Shown here one piece after another: positions 20,771 through 29,821 of a stretch of DNA of 64,000 bases. The notes below the pieces were generated by a model. It worked only from the letters and a program-made list of their open reading frames with translations, was not told the DNA's origin and did no database searches. Position numbers and translations under genes: made by a program. Where the stretch lies: positions 1 to 64,000 of the forward strand of contig CAUJIH010000101.1 of assembly GCA_963205275.1 (NCBI GenBank). Direction: 5' to 3'. The DNA comes from Verrucomicrobiota bacterium (GTDB lineage Bacteria; Verrucomicrobiota; Verrucomicrobiia; Verrucomicrobiales; DEV007). How positions within the stretch are numbered: the first letter of the stretch is position 1; each line of letters begins with the position of its first letter.

Positions 20771-20794
20771 CAGACAGGAATGCTTGTGCCACAC
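20771..20794. repeat. Decayed REP hairpin
   Basis: cagacaggaatgcttgtgcc followed by ac resembles the window's REP family (stem cagaca, loop gga(a/t), returning arm tgtctg, then ccac) but has lost pairing in the second arm. It lies between the Gfo/Idh stop and the helicase start. A TTG inside it opens the longest frame of the helicase, which is why the helicase start was moved to ATG 20811. Confidence 0.6.
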
Positions 20795-20810
20795 GGAGTT
20801 TTGCCACCTC

Positions 20811-23800
20811 ATGCCTTCCTCTAATCATCCCACGCTTCAATCTACCATCTACGACAATCAATCTCGTAGGAAAGCAGGGGATTTTTTAAAGGAGCACATT
20901 CGCTCTGGCAGCGAGCTTTCCTTCGTATCCGCCTATTTCACCGTACACGCTTTCGCCGCACTACAGGACAAGTTAGAAAGTTCAGCCCATCTTCGCTTTC
21001 TCTTCGGTGATCCGACTTCACTTGCCAGTCTCGATAAAGACGGCAAGGAAGCCCGTCGATTCACTTTGGGGCCAGACGGACACGCGCTCACCATCGGCAA
21101 CCAACTGTCCCAAAAGCAAATCGCTCGCGAGTGCGCTGCATGGATTCGCCATCAGGTCGAGATCCGCTCCATGCAGGGATCCTTTCTCCATGGAAAGCTC
21201 TACCATATCCGGAATGGCGAAACCTCTCATGCCCTACTCGGCAGCTCGAATTTCACCGCTCCCGGTCTCGGGCTGGCGGCTGATGGCGGCAATGTTGAGC
21301 TAAACATCGCCATCGATTCGAAACGAGACACGGACGATCTGGAAGCTTGGTTCAACGAACTCTGGCGAGACGACTCCACCACCGTCGATGTCCGCGACAA
21401 AGTGTTGGCGGAGCTAGCACGTCTATACTCTGACAACTCTCCCGAGTTTATCTACCACTTGACCCTTTTCCACATCTTCCGCCACTACTTGGAGAACGCC
21501 GGAAATGTCGATGAGACACTCTCTCGCGTCGCCCTGCCTGACACCCACATCTGGCGCACTCTCTTCACCTTCCAGAAAGACGGAGCCAAGGCCGCCATCA
21601 ACAAGATTCTCTCCACCAACGGCTGCATCCTCGCCGATTCCGTCGGACTCGGAAAAACCTACACCGCCCTCGCCGTCATCAAGTTCTTCGAGCTACGCAA
21701 CGAGCGCGTCCTCGTCCTGTGCCCGAACAAACTCCGTCGCAATTGGACGGTCTACAACTCCAACAGCACCCTCAACCCCTTCGACAAGGACCGCTTCGGA
21801 TACCACGTCCTTTCCCACACCGATCTCTCCCGCGAATGCGGCGAGGCGGGCGGCCACGATCTCTCCACTTTCAATTGGGGTGCCTATGATCTCGTGGTGA
21901 TCGACGAGTCACACAATTTTCGCAACAACCGCATCCGCACCGCCACCGATCCGGACGAGAGCGTCCGCCGCACCCGCTACCAGCGCCTTATGGAGGACAT
22001 CATCCAGAGCGGCCAGAAAACCAAAGTCCTGCTCCTCTCCGCCACCCCGGTGAACAATGAGCTGGCCGATCTCCGCAACCAGATTTCCTTCATCGCAGGT
22101 GGCGATGTGACTCGCGACGAATCCGCCAATGCTGCGTTCGCAACCAGCCTCGGGATCCGTTCCGTGCGTGACACCACCCGCACTGCCCAGACCCATTTTA
22201 CCACCTGGTCGAAAAAGAACCCGGAGCAGCGCACCACCCGCGAACTGTTACAAGCCCTCGGCGGAGATTTTTTCAAACTACTCGATGGCCTCAGCATCGC
22301 CCGCTCGCGCAAGCAGATCGCCACCTACTACAAAGAGGAAATGCAAAAATTAGGCGGCTTCCCTGCACGACCCGCCCCAGTCTCTTTGCACCCGGCCATT
22401 GATTCCGCCAACAAATTCCTCTCCTTCGAGCAGCTCAACGAGGAAATCGACGCCCTCAAGCTCGCCCTCTACCATCCCACCAGCTACCTGCGCGACGATC
22501 TGTCACCCCATCTGCGTGCTGCCTATGAGGACAAAATCCTCGGCGGCTTTACCCAGCAGGGTCGGGAAAAAATCCTCGTCAGCATGATGAAAGTAAATTT
22601 CCTCAAGCGACTGGAAAGCTCGGTGGTCTCCTTCCGTCTCACCTTGGAGCGCACCATAGCCAAGATCGATGAACTCGAGCGCCGCATTGCTGCCTTCGAA
22701 GTACACGCTGACACCCATACCGAGCTAGATTTCGACGCTGTGCTCCCCGAGCAGTTCGAGGATCCCGAACTCGATCCGGACTTAATCAAAGGCTTCACCA
22801 TCGGCGGTCGTCGCCGTCTTCATCTCGCCCACCTGAAACTCGACGAGTGGCTCAAAGACGTGCGCCATGACAGGACTCAGCTCCAGTTTCTCCTTGGAAA
22901 AACCGAGAAAGTCACTCCCGAGCGCGATGCCAAGCTCGCCCGCCTGCGGTCCCTGATCGAGGGCAAAAGCTCTCATCCCTCCACCAACAAAGACGGAAAA
23001 CCTGTCCGAAAAGTCCTCATCTTCACCGCCTTTGCCGATACCGCCCGCTACCTTTACGATCAGCTCACGCCGCATTTTCACGGGCAGCTCGGCCTGCACA
23101 CCGCACTCATCGTCGGCGATGGCGACAACAGGACCACCCTCGGCACCGCCGATTTTGACGACATCCTCACCAACTTCTCCCCTCTTTCCAAGCGCCGCGC
23201 TGCGCAACCGCGCTTTCCGCAGGAGGAGGAAATCGACGTCCTCATCGCCACCGACTGCATCTCCGAGGGCCAGAACCTCCAGGACTGCGACTACTTGGTG
23301 AACTACGACATCCACTGGAACCCCGTCCGCATCATCCAGCGCTTCGGCCGAATCGACCGCATCGGCTCGCGCAATGAGGCCGTCCAACTGGTCAATTTCT
23401 GGCCCACCGAAGACCTCGACCGCTATCTGAAAGTGAAACACCGGGTGGAGGCCCGTATGGCCCTAGCCGACCTCGCCGCCACCCAGACCGACAACCTCTT
23501 GCAGCCGGAGCAGATCGAAGATCTCATCACCGAGGATCTGCTCTTCCGCGACAAGCAGCTCAAACGCCTCCAGCACGAGGTGCTCGACCTAGAAGACCTC
23601 GCGGACTCCCCCAGCCTCACCAGCTTTTCGCTCGATGACTTCCGGCTCGAACTCCTCCGCTTCCTCGAGAGCCGCCGTGCCGAGTTGGAGGAGGCTCCGC
23701 TCGGCCTCTATGCCGTCGTCCCTCCGCCCGATGGCCTCCGTCCCACCGTCCAGCCCGGGGCCATGTTCTGCCTGCGCCGAGCCTCCCAAGCAGAGCAGCG

Positions 23801-24227
23801 CTCCGATACGGGGGAGAAGTTGAACCCTCTCGCCCCCCACTTCCTCCTCTACGTCCACGATGACGGAGTGGTCCGCTACTCCTTCGCCCAGCCCAAGGAA
23901 ACGCTCAACCTGCTCCGCGCACTTACCGCTGGACACCCCCGCGCAATCCAGTCCCTCTGCGAGCAATTCGATGCCGCCACCCAAAACGGCACCGACATGC
24001 AACACTACGACAAACTCGTGCAAAGCGCTCTGCGCACCATCGAAAACACCTTCCAAAAGCGCTCCGCCACCCATCTTTTCTCCGGGCGCGATGCACTCTT
24101 GCCCACCCAAGAAGAATCTGCCCACGCCGACGATGGCGATTGGGAACTCGTCACTTGGATCGTCGTGCAAGCCCCGCAGTCTCCGGACAGTGGCAACTCC
24201 AACAGTGGAAACAAGCGCTCTGCCTGA
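20811..24227 (+). CDS. PLD-type nuclease fused to SNF2-family helicase (defence-type)
   Basis: A protein of about 1138 residues, start at ATG 20811 (MPSSNHPTLQ). The N-terminal 190 residues form a PLD/HKD phosphodiesterase-like domain: HGKLYHI and LGSSNFTAPGL match the HxKxxxx...GSxN catalytic pattern. An SNF2-type ATPase follows: Walker A in ADSVGLGKTYTA, DEAH-box form VVIDESHNF, motif III LLLSATPVNN and motif VI IIQRFGRIDRIGS near residue 840, with a helical insertion between the lobes. PLD-helicase pairs occur in restriction systems such as DISARM, where DrmC and DrmD are separate proteins; here they are one. It heads an operon with VapBC and an adenine methyltransferase. Predicted role: ATP-driven recognition and cutting of unmodified DNA. 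Confidence 0.88.
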   Translation: MPSSNHPTLQSTIYDNQSRRKAGDFLKEHIRSGSELSFVSAYFTVHAFAALQDKLESSAHLRFLFGDPTSLASLDKDGKEARRFTLGPDGHALTIGNQLSQKQIARECAAWIRHQVEIRSMQGSFLHGKLYHIRNGETSHALLGSSNFTAPGLGLAADGGNVELNIAIDSKRDTDDLEAWFNELWRDDSTTVDVRDKVLAELARLYSDNSPEFIYHLTLFHIFRHYLENAGNVDETLSRVALPDTHIWRTLFTFQKDGAKAAINKILSTNGCILADSVGLGKTYTALAVIKFFELRNERVLVLCPNKLRRNWTVYNSNSTLNPFDKDRFGYHVLSHTDLSRECGEAGGHDLSTFNWGAYDLVVIDESHNFRNNRIRTATDPDESVRRTRYQRLMEDIIQSGQKTKVLLLSATPVNNELADLRNQISFIAGGDVTRDESANAAFATSLGIRSVRDTTRTAQTHFTTWSKKNPEQRTTRELLQALGGDFFKLLDGLSIARSRKQIATYYKEEMQKLGGFPARPAPVSLHPAIDSANKFLSFEQLNEEIDALKLALYHPTSYLRDDLSPHLRAAYEDKILGGFTQQGREKILVSMMKVNFLKRLESSVVSFRLTLERTIAKIDELERRIAAFEVHADTHTELDFDAVLPEQFEDPELDPDLIKGFTIGGRRRLHLAHLKLDEWLKDVRHDRTQLQFLLGKTEKVTPERDAKLARLRSLIEGKSSHPSTNKDGKPVRKVLIFTAFADTARYLYDQLTPHFHGQLGLHTALIVGDGDNRTTLGTADFDDILTNFSPLSKRRAAQPRFPQEEEIDVLIATDCISEGQNLQDCDYLVNYDIHWNPVRIIQRFGRIDRIGSRNEAVQLVNFWPTEDLDRYLKVKHRVEARMALADLAATQTDNLLQPEQIEDLITEDLLFRDKQLKRLQHEVLDLEDLADSPSLTSFSLDDFRLELLRFLESRRAELEEAPLGLYAVVPPPDGLRPTVQPGAMFCLRRASQAEQRSDTGEKLNPLAPHFLLYVHDDGVVRYSFAQPKETLNLLRALTAGHPRAIQSLCEQFDAATQNGTDMQHYDKLVQSALRTIENTFQKRSATHLFSGRDALLPTQEESAHADDGDWELVTWIVVQAPQSPDSGNSNSGNKRSA

Positions 24228-24323: not shown

Positions 24324-24578
24324 GTGAAAACAACTCTCGAACTCCCTGACTCACTCTTCCGCGAGATCAAGGCCACCGCAGCTCTCAACGGAATGAAAAT
24401 TAAAGACTTCGTGGCTGAAGCTCTGATGGAAAAGCTCAAATCCACCTCCGCAAGCCCACTCCAGAAGCCTTGGATGCGAGGCTTCGGCGCGCTCGCCGAT
24501 CTTCGGGAGGAAACACGATCCATCGTGGCGGACATCGAGGAAACCTTCGGCCAGATCGATGAAGAACATCGCTCATGA
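24324..24578 (+). CDS. vapB: VapB-like ribbon-helix-helix antitoxin
   Basis: An 84-residue protein starting with a ribbon-helix-helix segment (KTTLELPDSLFREIKATAAL, then GMKIKDFVAEALMEKL), the DNA-binding fold of many VapB antitoxins, followed by a C-terminal segment with Trp/Gly (KPWMRGFGALADL) likely to wrap around the toxin. Its stop overlaps the vapC start by 4 nt (ATGA), the standard coupled arrangement. The start is a GTG at 24324. It should neutralise VapC and repress the local promoter. The pair lies between the helicase and methyltransferase genes on the same strand, so it may also stabilise the whole defence operon. Confidence 0.85.
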   Translation: MKTTLELPDSLFREIKATAALNGMKIKDFVAEALMEKLKSTSASPLQKPWMRGFGALADLREETRSIVADIEETFGQIDEEHRS

Positions 24579-24952
24579 TCCTAGATACCAATGCCCTTTC
24601 CGCCTGGGCCGATGGTAACCCCGCCTGCCGTCCGGCCTTTCTTGAGGCGACACGATTGGTGGTTCCTGCCATCGTGCTGGGCGAATACCTCTACGGCATC
24701 CGCCAATCTCGTCACCGCATGCGCTATGAGGAATGGCTGGCTGAAAATCTTCCCTGTGCGGAACTCAGGCCGATCCACGGCTCCACTGCTGGCTATTACG
24801 CCGACCTCCGCATTCATCTCAAAGCCCGTGGGACACCCATTCCGGCGAACGACCTGTGGATCGCCGCCATGGCCGTGGAACTCCAGCTTCCTCTTCTCAG
24901 CAACGACAGCCATTTTGACCTGATTCCCAGCCTAATCCGCCTTTCCTTCTGA
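24575..24952 (+). CDS. vapC: VapC-like PIN-domain toxin
   Basis: A 125-residue PIN-domain ribonuclease. The conserved acidic residues are visible: Asp in MILDTNALSAW (residue 4), Glu in IVLGEYLYGI (near 35), Asp in IPANDLWIAA (near 93) and Asp in LLSNDSHFDLI (near 112). VapC toxins cut tRNA or rRNA when free of VapB. It overlaps vapB by 4 nt, and its TGA stop is followed at once by the ATG of the methyltransferase (TGAATG), so translation of toxin and methyltransferase is probably coupled. All four catalytic positions are intact, suggesting an active toxin. Confidence 0.9.
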   Translation: MILDTNALSAWADGNPACRPAFLEATRLVVPAIVLGEYLYGIRQSRHRMRYEEWLAENLPCAELRPIHGSTAGYYADLRIHLKARGTPIPANDLWIAAMAVELQLPLLSNDSHFDLIPSLIRLSF

Positions 24953-27900
24953 ATGATCCTTTTCCCTAGGTCGGACCTCCGCGCCGACCTCCAAGCTGCT
25001 CTTACCACCTTCACGGAAAAACCTTTCCGCGAGGCTGCCATCGCTCTGCTCGCCACCCTCGGCTATCGCAGTGATCGGACACTGGCCCTGTCGGACTCAT
25101 CCCCACAAACCTTCCTCCACTTCCTGCAGGAACATGACAAAGGCGGCATTTTCGGTGCCGAAAAGGCCCTCTTCTCCGATTGGGTCTCGGCAGACCTTCT
25201 CTTTCAGTTCACTGACTCGGAACTGACCCGGCAAGCCGATTTCTTTCCGGATTCGGATTTCAAACCGTCCTTCCTCCAGTCGTACCTCTTCTTCGCCGTG
25301 GAGTTGAACGGTAACTCGGCGGTCAACGGTCATTACGCCCGTGGCAAGCTCAGCACCATCGCCCGCCAGATCAACCGGGTCTTTCCCATGCCCGTCATGC
25401 TGCTGTTAAAACACGGTGGCTCCCTCTCTATCGCCGTCATCAACCGCCGCCTACACAAGCGCGATGCCTCCAAAGACGTGCTGCAGAAGGTCACGCTCAT
25501 CCGCGACATTGCCCTGCAAAATCCGCATCGCGGCCACCTCGACATCCTCGATTCCTTCGCACTTCCCAACCTCGAAAACCCCGAAAACCGGAAACAGCCC
25601 ATCCTCACCTTCGACCAGCTCCACGCCGCCTGGGAGCAAATCTTCAATGTCGAGCTGCTCAACAAGCGATTTTACAAGGATCTCGCCAATTGGTATTTCT
25701 GGGCGCTGCCTCAAGTGGAGTTCCCCGATGATGTGGAAAAGAACTCGGAGAAACGCCGCGCCACCGGCCTCATCCGCCTGCTCACCCGACTCATCTTCTG
25801 CTGGTTTCTCAAGCAAAAGGACGAACTCATCCCCGAAACGCTCTTCGACTCACGAGAACTGACCGGTATTCTCAAGGACTTTGATCCCCAGAGTGATTCT
25901 GACTCCAATTACTACCACGCCATCCTGCAAAACCTCTTCTTCGCCACGCTCAACCAGCGCATGGGCAAAGATGGTCGTAGCCAGTCCTATCGGGCCTTTG
26001 CGCTCGATCAAGGCTTTGTCAAGAACCGCGATACTCACGACGTCAATAATCTCTACCGCTACGAGCAGCTCTTTTCCATCTCTCCCGATGAGGTGATCGA
26101 GTTGTTCTCCACCATCCCTTTCCTCAATGGCGGCCTCTTCGAATGCCTTGATCGCACGGAAGCTAGTACCGACAATCTTGTTAGTGATTTACGAAAAACG
26201 GACAAGAGTGTCCGTTCCACCTTCAAAAAGCGCTATCTCGACGGCTTCTCCCGAAATCCCAAAAAGCGTCCCACGGTCCCCAATCACCTTTTTTTCTCTG
26301 AGGAAATCCGCGAGAATCTCGCTGATGCCTATGGTGATACCAATAGGAAACACGAGAAGGTATCGGGACTCATCCGCATCCTGAACCGCTACAAATTCAC
26401 CATCGTCGAAAACACCCCCATCGATCAGGAAATCGCGCTTGATCCCGAGCTGCTGGGCCAGGTCTTTGAGAACCTCCTCGCTTCGTACAACGAGGAAACA
26501 AAAACCACGGCCCGCAAGCAAACCGGATCATTCTACACGCCACGCGTCATCGTCGACTACATGGTAGACGAGTCCCTCAAGGCACATTTAGAGCAAAAGG
26601 TAGCCGAGACAATCCTGTCTCGGTCTTCAAATAATCTGTCTCGGTCTTCAAATAACCTGTCTCGGTCTTCCAATCAAAAATTAAGTGCACCTGAGACGAT
26701 CCCGTCTCAGGTGCTGCTTTCTCGAATGACCGAGACAGGATTGTCTCGGCTACCCTATTTCGACCCGAACGCGCCTATAGAAAAGAAACAGGCGAATTTG
26801 CCTCACTGGACGCAGTCTGGGACCACCTACTGGATCACCTTTCGTCTGGCCGATTCTCTTCCGCAAGACAAGCTAGCTGCATGGAAGGAGGAACGAGACG
26901 ACTGGATCCAAGATCACCCCGAACCTTGGGACGAAGCCCAGTGGAAGGAATACGATGAACGCTTCGGATTACGCCTCGAAAATTGGCTCGACGCCGGATC
27001 TGGTGAGTGTCATCTGCGCCGTCCAGAGATTCGCGCCATCGTTGAGAACTGCCTGAGGCGCTTCCACGGCATCCGCTACGATCTCGGCCCGTGGGTGATC
27101 ATGCCCAACCACGTTCATCTTCTACTCCGTCCCCGAGAAGGGCAATCGCTCTCAAAAATTCTACAAGGAATCAAAGGCGTTAGCGCAAAAGAGAGCAATG
27201 CCCTGCTCGGTCGTACCGGTCAGCCATTCTGGCAGGAAGAGTCCTTCGACCACATCGTTCGCAGTCAGGCGCAATGGGAGCGCTTCGTACGCTACATCGC
27301 AGCGAACCCAGTGAAGGCAAAACTCAGAAAAGAAGAATACAGCATAGAGCTGGCTCAGCGTGACTCCGACAATCAGAGTAGCTCCGACAATCAGAGTAGC
27401 TCCGACAATCTTGTCGGAGTCCCACATAATCACGAGACAGGATTGTCTCGTCTACCCTCCCGCCTCGACCACCTCTTTTCCTACACCGAGGAATCCCATC
27501 AATTCTCCGACTCCGAAGTCGCTGCCCTCATCAACGCCATCGACGAGGTGAAAATCCTCGATCCTGCTTGTGGCTCTGGGGCCTTTCCCATGGGCGTCCT
27601 TCACAAGCTCGTCTATATCCTCGGCAAGCTCGACCCCGATAACGAACGCTGGAAGCAAACCCAATTACAAAAGCTCGACTCCGCTCCCATGCGTGAAGCT
27701 CTGGAAGCAGCCTTTGCCGACAACAACGACGACTACGGGCGCAAGCTCTACCTCATCGAGAACTGTCTCTATGGAGTCGATATCCAGCCCATCGCCATCC
27801 AGATCACCAAGCTCCGCTTCTTTATCTCCCTCATTGCCGATCAAAAGACCAACCGCGACAAATCCAAAAATTACGGCATCCGGCCACTACCGAATCTGGA

Positions 27901-29821
27901 GACGAAATTCGTGGCTGCAGATACCCTCATCGGCCTGCCGGAAATGGAGCACGACCTCCTCATCAACCCCCGCATTGCCCAAATTGAAAAGGAAATCGAA
28001 GTTCTCTACCACGCCCACTTTTCCGAACAAAATCGCACCCGCAAACTCGCCAGCCAGCGCAAGGTCAAAGCCCTGCGCCAAGAAATGGCGACCCTTTTGG
28101 CCGAAAGCCTTCTCTCTCCCGCCAAAGCGCGACACCTCGCCGAGTGGGATCCCTTCGATCCTCAATCCCAGGCTGACTTCTTCGATCCCTATTGGATGTT
28201 TGGCATCCACGCGGGCAAAATGACCCGCACGAACCCTACCACACTTACGGGGGGATTTACTGCCTTGCTCGTTGACGAACTCGCCCCGAAAATTACGGAA
28301 GAATCTGGCTTCGACATCGTCATCGGAAATCCGCCCTACATCCAGATTCAAAAATTCCCCGCAGCCCAGAAGGCGAAATGGGAAGCACAAAAGTTCTCCA
28401 CCTACGCCGCCACCGCCGATATCTACTGTCTCTTTTACGAGCGTGGTGCGAAGCTCCTGCGTTCTGGAGGCCACCTCTGCTTCATCACTTCGAACAAATG
28501 GATGCGTGCGGGCTACGGCGAAGCCTTGCGCCGGTATCTGACATCGCAGGTGGACACCCGTGCCGTGCTCGATTTCGGCATGGCACAGAATTTCGGAGCC
28601 GCCACCACCTACACCTGCATCACCTCGCTGACCCGCGAGCCCTCACGGCACCGCACACTCTGCGCTTATGCCAGCGACACCGCCGCCGCGATGAATGATC
28701 CGGCGGACTACATGGCGGCCCACGCCGTCCCGCTCACCTCGCTGAGCAGCGATGCATGGGTCATCCTTTCTCCCGAACGCCACGCCATCAAAGCTGCCGT
28801 CGAGAAACAGGGGATTCCTTTGGGAAAGTGGGACATTCAGATCAATTATGGCATCAAGACCGGCTTCAACCAGGCCTTCTACATCACCCGAGAGCAGCGC
28901 GACGCCTTCATCGCCGAAGATCCGCGTTGTGAACCCTACCTGGTGCCGCTCCTGCGCGGACGATTTGTCGAGCGCTACGGGCATTCGTGGGATGGGACTT
29001 GGATGATCGCCACATTTCCAGCATTCGATTACAAGCTTTCGCAGCTACCGAAACCCATTGTCACACATTTGGAGTCTTTTCGTGTCTCATTAGAACCCAA
29101 GCCTCGTGATTGGAAAGCCCCCAAATGGGACGGGCGCAAGGCAGGCTCCTATAAGTGGTTCGAGACCCAGGATGTCATCGGTTATCATCAGGAGTTTCAG
29201 AAGCCGAAGATCATTTATCAAGAAATAGCGATCAGCCTTCCCTTCTTCTTTGATGATTCATGTCAGATGTTTATGGATACGACTTGCTTTATGATTTCTT
29301 CAGATAAAGAAAGCTTGCCTTATCTCACGGCAATTTTGAATTCATCGCTATTTCGATGCTGTTTTCGAGGAAACTTTCCAGAGTATTCAGGCAATGCCAG
29401 CCGTGTGAAAAAAATCTTCATGGACAAAATCCCCGTGAAGAAGCCCACCACTGCGGAAGCCGCACTTTTTGAGAAGCTCGTCCCCCTCATCCAGTTCGCC
29501 CAGGGTGGCGCAGACAATCCTGTCTGCGATCCTTCCGAGATGAACCTGGACAAGATTGTCCAGGCTACCTTCCTCGAAGACCTCATCGACGCCTGTGTGA
29601 TGGAGTGCTACTTCCGTGAACACATGGCCGAACGCGATCTGCTCTTCCACGACAGCGTTGCACGAGCAATCCTGTCCGCGTCCACCAGCGACCCGCAAAC
29701 AGAATTGTCTGCGCTACTCTCCCTCAACGCCCCCTTCCACCCCATCCGCAAACGCCTCGATCACCTCACCACCACCAGCCCCGATTTGCTGGCGGTCATC
29801 AAGGCGGAAGGCAAAGTATAA
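24953..29821 (+). CDS. Eco57I-like adenine methyltransferase with an in-frame RAYT transposase insertion
   Basis: A 1622-residue open frame. The N-terminal 545 residues are the restriction-associated helical region, including YEQLFSISPDEVIELFSTIP and GSFYTPRVIVDYMVDESLK, the usual lead-in to the methyltransferase. The SAM motif I DPACGSGAFPMG appears only near residue 870, and the catalytic motif IV IGNPPYIQ near 1125, followed by the target-recognition region. Between about 550 and 835 lies an inserted REP-associated transposase with translated REP arms. Relatives run directly from the DESLKAHL segment to RLDHLFSYTEE, so the host protein would be about 1340 residues. Further short REP-derived insertions are translated near residues 405-422, 1518-1539 and 1569-1589. 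Both motifs I and IV are intact, so methylation activity may survive. Start directly abuts vapC. Confidence 0.88.
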   Translation: MILFPRSDLRADLQAALTTFTEKPFREAAIALLATLGYRSDRTLALSDSSPQTFLHFLQEHDKGGIFGAEKALFSDWVSADLLFQFTDSELTRQADFFPDSDFKPSFLQSYLFFAVELNGNSAVNGHYARGKLSTIARQINRVFPMPVMLLLKHGGSLSIAVINRRLHKRDASKDVLQKVTLIRDIALQNPHRGHLDILDSFALPNLENPENRKQPILTFDQLHAAWEQIFNVELLNKRFYKDLANWYFWALPQVEFPDDVEKNSEKRRATGLIRLLTRLIFCWFLKQKDELIPETLFDSRELTGILKDFDPQSDSDSNYYHAILQNLFFATLNQRMGKDGRSQSYRAFALDQGFVKNRDTHDVNNLYRYEQLFSISPDEVIELFSTIPFLNGGLFECLDRTEASTDNLVSDLRKTDKSVRSTFKKRYLDGFSRNPKKRPTVPNHLFFSEEIRENLADAYGDTNRKHEKVSGLIRILNRYKFTIVENTPIDQEIALDPELLGQVFENLLASYNEETKTTARKQTGSFYTPRVIVDYMVDESLKAHLEQKVAETILSRSSNNLSRSSNNLSRSSNQKLSAPETIPSQVLLSRMTETGLSRLPYFDPNAPIEKKQANLPHWTQSGTTYWITFRLADSLPQDKLAAWKEERDDWIQDHPEPWDEAQWKEYDERFGLRLENWLDAGSGECHLRRPEIRAIVENCLRRFHGIRYDLGPWVIMPNHVHLLLRPREGQSLSKILQGIKGVSAKESNALLGRTGQPFWQEESFDHIVRSQAQWERFVRYIAANPVKAKLRKEEYSIELAQRDSDNQSSSDNQSSSDNLVGVPHNHETGLSRLPSRLDHLFSYTEESHQFSDSEVAALINAIDEVKILDPACGSGAFPMGVLHKLVYILGKLDPDNERWKQTQLQKLDSAPMREALEAAFADNNDDYGRKLYLIENCLYGVDIQPIAIQITKLRFFISLIADQKTNRDKSKNYGIRPLPNLETKFVAADTLIGLPEMEHDLLINPRIAQIEKEIEVLYHAHFSEQNRTRKLASQRKVKALRQEMATLLAESLLSPAKARHLAEWDPFDPQSQADFFDPYWMFGIHAGKMTRTNPTTLTGGFTALLVDELAPKITEESGFDIVIGNPPYIQIQKFPAAQKAKWEAQKFSTYAATADIYCLFYERGAKLLRSGGHLCFITSNKWMRAGYGEALRRYLTSQVDTRAVLDFGMAQNFGAATTYTCITSLTREPSRHRTLCAYASDTAAAMNDPADYMAAHAVPLTSLSSDAWVILSPERHAIKAAVEKQGIPLGKWDIQINYGIKTGFNQAFYITREQRDAFIAEDPRCEPYLVPLLRGRFVERYGHSWDGTWMIATFPAFDYKLSQLPKPIVTHLESFRVSLEPKPRDWKAPKWDGRKAGSYKWFETQDVIGYHQEFQKPKIIYQEIAISLPFFFDDSCQMFMDTTCFMISSDKESLPYLTAILNSSLFRCCFRGNFPEYSGNASRVKKIFMDKIPVKKPTTAEAALFEKLVPLIQFAQGGADNPVCDPSEMNLDKIVQATFLEDLIDACVMECYFREHMAERDLLFHDSVARAILSASTSDPQTELSALLSLNAPFHPIRKRLDHLTTTSPDLLAVIKAEGKV
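26166..26220. repeat. Translated REP pair (BIME) A in the methyltransferase gene
   Basis: A decayed copy at about 26167-26186 (ccgacaatcttgttag) is followed by a perfect inverted-orientation hairpin at 26197-26216: arms aacggaca and tgtccgtt, 8 bp, loop agag. The hairpin is trailed by ccac, the reverse complement of the GTGG foot. The pair is read through in frame (residues about 405-422, EASTDNLVSDLRKTDKSVRS). Confidence 0.75.
26604..26753. repeat. Left BIME of the RAYT element
   Basis: Three complete hairpins: 26604-26623 (ccgagaca, loop atcc, tgtctcgg), about 26690-26711 (cctgagacg, loop atcc, cgtctcagg, 9 bp) and 26730-26749 (ccgagaca, loop ggat, tgtctcgg), the last in inverted orientation and followed by CTAC at 26750-26753. 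Partial 21-bp copies lie between the first two. All are translated. Confidence 0.88.
26615..26677 (+). repeat. Three 21-bp tandem repeats (half-REP units)
   Basis: The unit ctgtctcggtcttcaaataa plus one base starts at 26615, 26636 and 26657. It consists of the right arm of the first REP hairpin plus its spacer. At 21 bp it preserves frame and encodes LSRSSNN, LSRSSNN, LSRSSNQ. Confidence 0.9.
27365..27455. repeat. Right BIME with 18-bp half-REP repeats
   Basis: The unit tccgacaatcagagtagc starts at 27365 and 27383, and a third start at 27401 runs into a complete hairpin at 27400-27419 (ctccgaca, loop atct, tgtcggag) preceded by GTAG at 27396-27399. It is followed by the inverted hairpin at 27432-27451 and CTAC. 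The 18-bp unit encodes SDNQSS repeats and keeps the frame. Confidence 0.88.
29505..29568. repeat. Translated REP pair (BIME) C in the methyltransferase gene
   Basis: GTGG at 29505-29508 precedes a perfect hairpin 29509-29528 (cgcagaca, loop atcc, tgtctgcg). An inverted perfect hairpin follows at 29545-29564 (cctggaca, loop agat, tgtccagg) with CTAC at 29565-29568. The two stems differ in sequence but each is fully paired. The pair is read in frame as residues about 1518-1539. Confidence 0.9.
29657..29717. repeat. Translated REP pair (BIME) D, partly decayed
   Basis: The left copy 29661-29680 (cacgagca, loop atcc, tgtccgcg) has three mispaired positions. The right copy 29694-29713 (cgcaaaca, loop gaat, tgtctgcg) has one and is followed by CTAC at 29714-29717. 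It lies near the C-terminus and is read in frame (residues about 1569-1589). Confidence 0.75.

Follow-up and report, generated by a model that had tools for sequence, protein, structure and literature searches.

The REP-bounded RAYT transposase in our 64-kb window (the whole stretch of DNA analysed) most probably lives as an unspliced internal domain of its host protein, a restriction-type methyltransferase (MTase). It appears to be a local case of the lifestyle of a RAYT clade in Verrucomicrobiota, the Planctomycetota group and a few other genomes. We base this reading on the anatomy of the insert, its open frame, empty sites in homologues, recurrence, single-copy hosts, purifying selection, gene-specific lineages and interspersed allele states. 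Recurrence shows that embedded RAYTs persist, and the trees suggest that they are exchanged between alleles. We infer from the sequences that the fusion protein is made and that both halves work.

A RAYT element inside an open methyltransferase gene

The initial annotation described a 1622-residue frame free of stops, and positions 24953-29821 (+) indeed form one ORF of 1622 amino acids with zero internal stops. The features of the locus are as follows.

24953..29821, +, host gene, a type IIG / Eco57I-family restriction-modification MTase of 1622 aa with embedded RAYT (ORF, Pfam, PADLOC REase_MTase_IIG PDLC03596, 348 bits)
26531..26545, +, MTase motif X (FYTPR), left of the insert (alignment with 15 homologues)
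26599..27456, +, inserted element, a REP-bounded RAYT, in frame (sequence, repeat search, homologue alignment)
26599..26625, +, left REP, GTAG plus hairpin CCGAGACA-ATCC-TGTCTCGG, with the in-frame reading VAETILSR (repeat search, folding)
26615..26677, +, three 21-bp tandem partial REP units (LSRSSNN) (repeat search)
26728..26754, +, internal inverted REP adjoining the RAYT coding start (repeat search)
26750..27349, +, RAYT (TnpA-REP) domain, ~200 aa (PF01797; PDB 4er8, sequence E 8e-4; 4er8 also the best Foldseek match of the AF2 model, E 7e-5)
27107..27118, +, HUH motif NHVH, residues 719-722 (sequence)
27293..27295, +, codon of the catalytic-type Tyr (YIAANP), residue 781 (sequence)
27355..27410, +, three 18-20-bp tandem units (SSDNQ) at the right end of the insert (repeat search)
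27433..27458, +, right REP, hairpin plus CTAC, inverted relative to the left end (repeat search, folding)
27560..27586, +, MTase SAM-binding motif I (DPACGSGAF), right of the insert (alignment with homologues)
29511..29526, +, extra REP core CAGACAATCCTGTCTG, lying in frame within the C-terminal portion of the MTase gene, read GGADNPVCD (window scan for the REP hairpin)

Pfam located the Eco57I domain (PF07669) at residues 937-1214 of the host protein, the TaqI_C specificity domain at residues 1392-1495 and Y1_Tnp (PF01797) at residues 710-784 (30 bits, cut-off 23). The host thus carries what defines a type IIG / Eco57I MTase, namely motifs X and I, the Eco57I domain and a specificity domain, and the RAYT insert sits between motifs X and I.

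The 856-bp element previously placed at 26600-27455 was correct within 1-2 bases, and a terminal inverted repeat together with folding confirmed its GTAG-hairpin and hairpin-CTAC ends. The two arms of this repeat, GGTAGCCGAGACAATCCTGTCTCG (26599-26622) and CGAGACAGGATTGTCTCGTCTACC (27433-27456), are 96% complementary, and a third copy lies internally at 26728-26754. Both ends fold into hairpins (z -3.9 to -5.5), with GTAG on the left and CTAC on the right outside the stem. The extent given for the RAYT held only in part: the element spans 26599-27456, but the RAYT domain proper covers only ~26750-27349, the remainder consisting of REP units and of tandem repeats of 18 and 21 bp. Allowing up to two mismatches, the REP hairpin occurred at 8 sites in the window, against 0.14 expected. 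Since the insert replaces ~13 codons of the linker found in empty homologues, the insertion was not clean, and we rejected a clean insertion with target duplication, none being seen.

Both the HUH (NHVH) and Tyr (YIAANP) motifs reported for the insert are intact, and PF01797 scored above its cut-off. AF2, run with 16 sequences, predicted the whole fragment poorly (mean pLDDT 58.9); the RAYT core reached pLDDT values of mostly 74-91, with disordered linkers on either side. PDB 4er8, a RAYT bound to its REP hairpin, was the top fold match and the sole sequence match of the domain. The RAYT hallmarks present here are the HUH and Tyr motifs, the RAYT fold and flanking GTAG REP hairpins with genomic copies. 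RAYTs are usually encoded as their own gene, which is not a catalytic criterion; the one at the window locus is instead part of the continuous 1622-aa frame.

The window's own genome contains 39 exact REP cores and 16 with one mismatch, whereas a reversed-pattern control gave 0. In the 20 regions checked, the cores appeared intergenic, and none was clearly inside another gene. Their stem is mostly CAGACA, and that of the insert is GAGACA. Among the five Y1 transposase genes of this genome, the embedded RAYT alone is flanked by a REP core, the other four having none within 2 kb, and it is therefore the best candidate for the cognate transposase of the genome's REPs. The same genome has a solo RAYT (L003) with an ORF similar to a group II intron reverse transcriptase after it.

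A scan of genome contigs yielded 38 MTase homologues. Most close ones have an empty site, SLKAHL-[~17 residues]-LDLLFAYTEK, between motifs X and I, including L010, whose fragment aligns at 88% identity. Four homologues from different organisms (L006, L007, L008 and L024) carry an in-frame RAYT at this site, each with its own REP sequence, and the site is also occupied in L078, L079, L086, L111 and L250, which rules out a recent single insertion confined to the window genome. At least two, and probably three, RAYT lineages are present at the MTase site. The annotation's suggestion that the MTase tolerates a domain insertion gained support from the empty-site homologues (L009-L023), from the intact frame and both MTase halves, and from unrelated enzymes that are likewise interrupted. 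It had also asked whether close homologues all carry a non-transposase domain at the site; we found both empty and RAYT-bearing homologues. In L012, the linker is filled by an unrelated short repeat, RQKVAGGSPSPGGEGRGEGGRS, with no RAYT. A poly-serine (TCC/TCT) tract lies at the left end of the insert in L007 (9560-9670), and additional REP units lie in frame at other places of the MTase gene in L008 and L024. The genome of L008 (G328) also has an in-frame RAYT inside a Mod-type DNA methyltransferase (L244).

Embedded RAYTs in other, often single-copy enzymes

We searched 289 genomes of the phylum (Verrucomicrobiota) for RAYT domains and listed 149 matches. Excluding the window, 48 of the 148 listed matches lay in open frames of at least 480 codons, mostly with host protein on both sides. 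HMMs identified the hosts as LeuRS, ValRS, CarB, PriA, XseA, IspG, CCA-transferase, HypF, MmeI, HsdR, radical SAM DUF4080, glycosyltransferases and MetH, and, outside the 289-genome survey, AlaRS and FabZ. Host scores were 957-995 bits for LeuRS, 1060 for ValRS, 1694 for CarB and 1117 for MetH, and in most cases the matches fell on both sides of the insert. For FabZ, the models matched the part before the insert, and the part after it was recognised by eye. The FabZ RAYTs comprise seven genes (L251, L254, L260, L261, L262, L265, L266) in seven genomes, from the phylum of a Planctomycetaceae genome. FabZ has only ~150 aa, so that the RAYT exceeds its host in size; all seven genomes share one site, and these RAYTs form one clade (98/87). 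A Ca. Contendobacter genome has a RAYT of this family in an Eco57I-like MTase, again between motifs X and I.

Dozens more embedded RAYT loci were found beyond the 48 of the phylum survey. In about five of the 48 long frames (L088, L115, L117, L121, L123), the RAYT lies near the C-terminal end with little host sequence after it, and these may be ordinary adjacent fusions. Motifs are changed in some embedded RAYTs, with THxH in L078, L079 and L111 and an altered Tyr region in L103, L106 and L107, so not every embedded RAYT need be active. The HypF gene that holds the RAYT of L164 has one internal TAG; this copy is apparently decaying within a dispensable gene.

Finding the same RAYT family in tRNA synthetases, PriA, CarB, FabZ and others indicates that the insertion is a trait of the transposase rather than of the defence gene. 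The same distribution ruled out a defence-specific fusion and left the earlier idea of a self-regulating defence gene unsupported, while its "self-mobilising" counterpart fits the homing-like distribution described below. Plasmid carriage was also rejected, with only two weak records.

Several interrupted genes are the only copy found in their genome. This was the case, at genome completeness of 92-98%, for leuS (only copy above cut-off in G238, G241, G244 and G278), priA (only copy found in G228, G130, G127, G032 and G029) and carB (only copy found in G269). In model bacteria, leuS, priA and carB are essential or nearly so. The interrupted LeuRS, PriA and CarB should therefore work.

The embedded RAYTs contain no stops and keep the host frame. 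Comparison of the window RAYT with L008 gave pN 0.15 and pS 0.72, and other pairs gave pN 0.14-0.38 and pS 0.59-0.91; synonymous sites being saturated, dN/dS is qualitative here and we claim just purifying selection. Most embedded copies lack an ATG or Shine-Dalgarno sequence in the REP linker, and some have none of ATG, GTG or TTG within 60 codons before LPHW. Nearly all solo RAYT copies have an ATG 12-47 codons before LPHW. An independent nested gene with its own start was rejected: candidates were few (in the window, an ATG in the internal REP, 24 codons before LPHW), with no consistent start or Shine-Dalgarno sequence. The left and right flanks share a repeat of at least 12 nt in 71 of 81 embedded copies, against 7.5% in a mispaired control. 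These sequence features suggest that the RAYT is translated together with its host and is selected.

Gene-specific lineages and competing explanations

We propose that the RAYT and its REP hairpins entered the MTase linker in the sole orientation and frame that keeps the host ORF open, and that the RAYT would be made as an internal domain of the host protein and not spliced out. The host enzyme would tolerate it because the insert sits in a flexible linker. The clade would inhabit other genes, often single-copy and normally essential, at gene-specific sites. In the proposed course of events, a REP-RAYT element would enter a linker, and wrong-frame or stop-bearing insertions would be purged in essential genes; a surviving insert would be expressed by the host gene and be hard to lose harmlessly. 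Exchange between alleles might then occur via RAYT-mediated strand transfer or recombination, with REP-directed single-strand cleavage and recombination permitting re-entry or spread between alleles of one gene.

A more specific form of this proposal is strict homing: the embedded RAYT would cut or target those alleles of its host gene that are empty, and a copy of the element would be placed there by HUH single-strand chemistry, in the manner of inteins but without splicing. We regard this form as possible, though less likely than not. It accords with the tree of 117 RAYTs, which follows the host gene: ten host-gene labels needed 9 changes, the minimum, compared with 45.2 for shuffled labels. 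In the two families sampled in depth (f18 and f25), PriA has two RAYT alleles, A and B, which are separate RAYT clades and are each present in both families. On the PriA tree, where one long branch (L211) is unreliable, A, B and empty states are interspersed, and well supported branches force at least 4, 4 and 5 changes, respectively. PriA pairs of one family with differing alleles have hosts 86% identical and RAYTs 52% identical; across families, XseA RAYTs are 65-72% identical and their hosts 53-57%. Some empty PriAs have clean sites, and others bear REP-only scars, which in G290 resemble allele B and in G160 allele A. Recurrent occupancy of the same site together with empty alleles, an intein-like trait, was found for both PriA and the MTase. 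However, the linker at the site was replaced, not cleanly interrupted, and homologous recombination of gene segments with loss could yield the same pattern. A REP or REPIN might instead come first into a permissive linker, with any RAYT joining later in repeated independent insertions. This account, which is compatible with an unspliced embedded domain, is possible but somewhat doubtful in our judgement: the separate RAYT lineages at the MTase site, the REP-only scars in PriA and the unrelated repeat in L012 speak for it, yet the RAYTs of one host gene cluster far beyond expectation, which random re-insertion from a genome pool would not produce. Overall, the pattern of alleles and lineages resembles homing, or a hot spot with exchange, two readings that the data do not fully separate, and its horizontal component could also reflect independent insertions that recurred at a permissive linker, or an old polymorphism.

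We consider it unlikely that the RAYT was recruited to give host enzymes a DNA-binding or regulatory function. Purifying selection on the domain and the several DNA enzymes among the hosts (MTases, PriA, XseA, HsdR) would agree with such domestication, but the same family occurs in LeuRS, CarB, FabZ, AlaRS, IspG and MetH, and its presence varies among close relatives. Removal of the insert from RNA or protein, or ribosomal skipping, is very unlikely, even though the long terminal inverted repeat could draw the insert ends together: a strict host frame and the absence of stops would then be needless. Splicing by an intron or intein was ruled out, as Rfam gave no match to group I/II catalytic RNA at E 0.1 and Pfam none to a self-splicing HINT domain in the 1622-aa protein. 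The genomes with embedded RAYTs are mostly MAGs, but an assembly or binning artefact is extremely improbable given ~100 in-frame loci from independent assemblies, including genomes of few contigs (G029 with 7, G310 with 5). The preferred reading remains an unspliced internal domain. More tentatively still than that reading, these loci may represent homing elements of an unspliced class. Their HUH transposases would move among the alleles of particular host genes and remain as internal domains of essential enzymes present in single copy, and the enzyme itself (LeuRS, PriA, MTase) would serve as transposase for the genome's REPs.

Relation to known elements

The insert shares with RAYT / TnpA-REP systems and REPtrons (PMC2817692, PMC6006769) the HUH and Tyr motifs, the RAYT fold, GTAG hairpin REPs on both sides and a genomic REP family. 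Those systems are described as separate genes, whereas here the RAYT is an internal domain of another protein. A RAYT survey of 2018 left out a few members of unexpected length, regarding them as gene fusions or annotation errors (PMC6006769). That short REPs can lie in frame in genes has been described before, and Opitutus terrae is one of the richest genomes (PMC3733652). Like our inserts, these REPs and the Rickettsia palindromic elements are palindromic repeats lying in frame in genes, including uvrA of O. terrae (Verrucomicrobia), and are thought to be tolerated in linkers; they are short, those of the largest clusters measuring 43 to 82 codons, and lack a transposase (PMC3733652).

Inteins with homing endonucleases likewise sit in frame in conserved, often essential genes, at the same sites across species, with allele-specific lineages and empty alleles. 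RAYT inserts differ from them in having no splicing domain, in an HUH transposase that replaces the homing endonuclease and in that the insert would stay in the protein. The ShiLan insertion in a phage methylase (PMC11855218) is also a stop-free read-through thought to home unspliced, but its HNH endonuclease is read in another frame and has a start and a stop of its own. In yeast, WHO elements (PMC7282813) home much as inteins do in FBA1, a gene of central metabolism, and no protein splicing is involved; unlike RAYT inserts, they replace the 3' end of the gene and derive from an intein-type endonuclease.

In the literature searched, which left out most subscription papers and preprints, we found no whole RAYTs inside essential enzymes. 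If our reading is true, an autonomous transposase can inhabit a conserved, normally essential enzyme as an unspliced domain, a niche hitherto tied to inteins. It would also suggest an answer to the long-term persistence of single-copy RAYTs, in that the host gene guarantees expression and penalises imprecise loss. The loci would further offer a large natural collection of essential proteins that tolerate insertions of ~200 residues. Annotation would change as well: in Verrucomicrobiota and the Planctomycetota group, many genes now called "fusion" or "transposase" are probably intact housekeeping genes.

The host itself shares its MTase motifs and TaqI_C specificity domain with type IIG Eco57I-family restriction-modification enzymes, which themselves lack a transposase; in empty homologues the site holds a linker of 17 residues. 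Its neighbours are an HKD+Snf2 helicase at 20784-24227 (PADLOC C3a139, 384 bits) and a small PIN-like ORF at 24575-24952, and the three genes together probably form a defence island.
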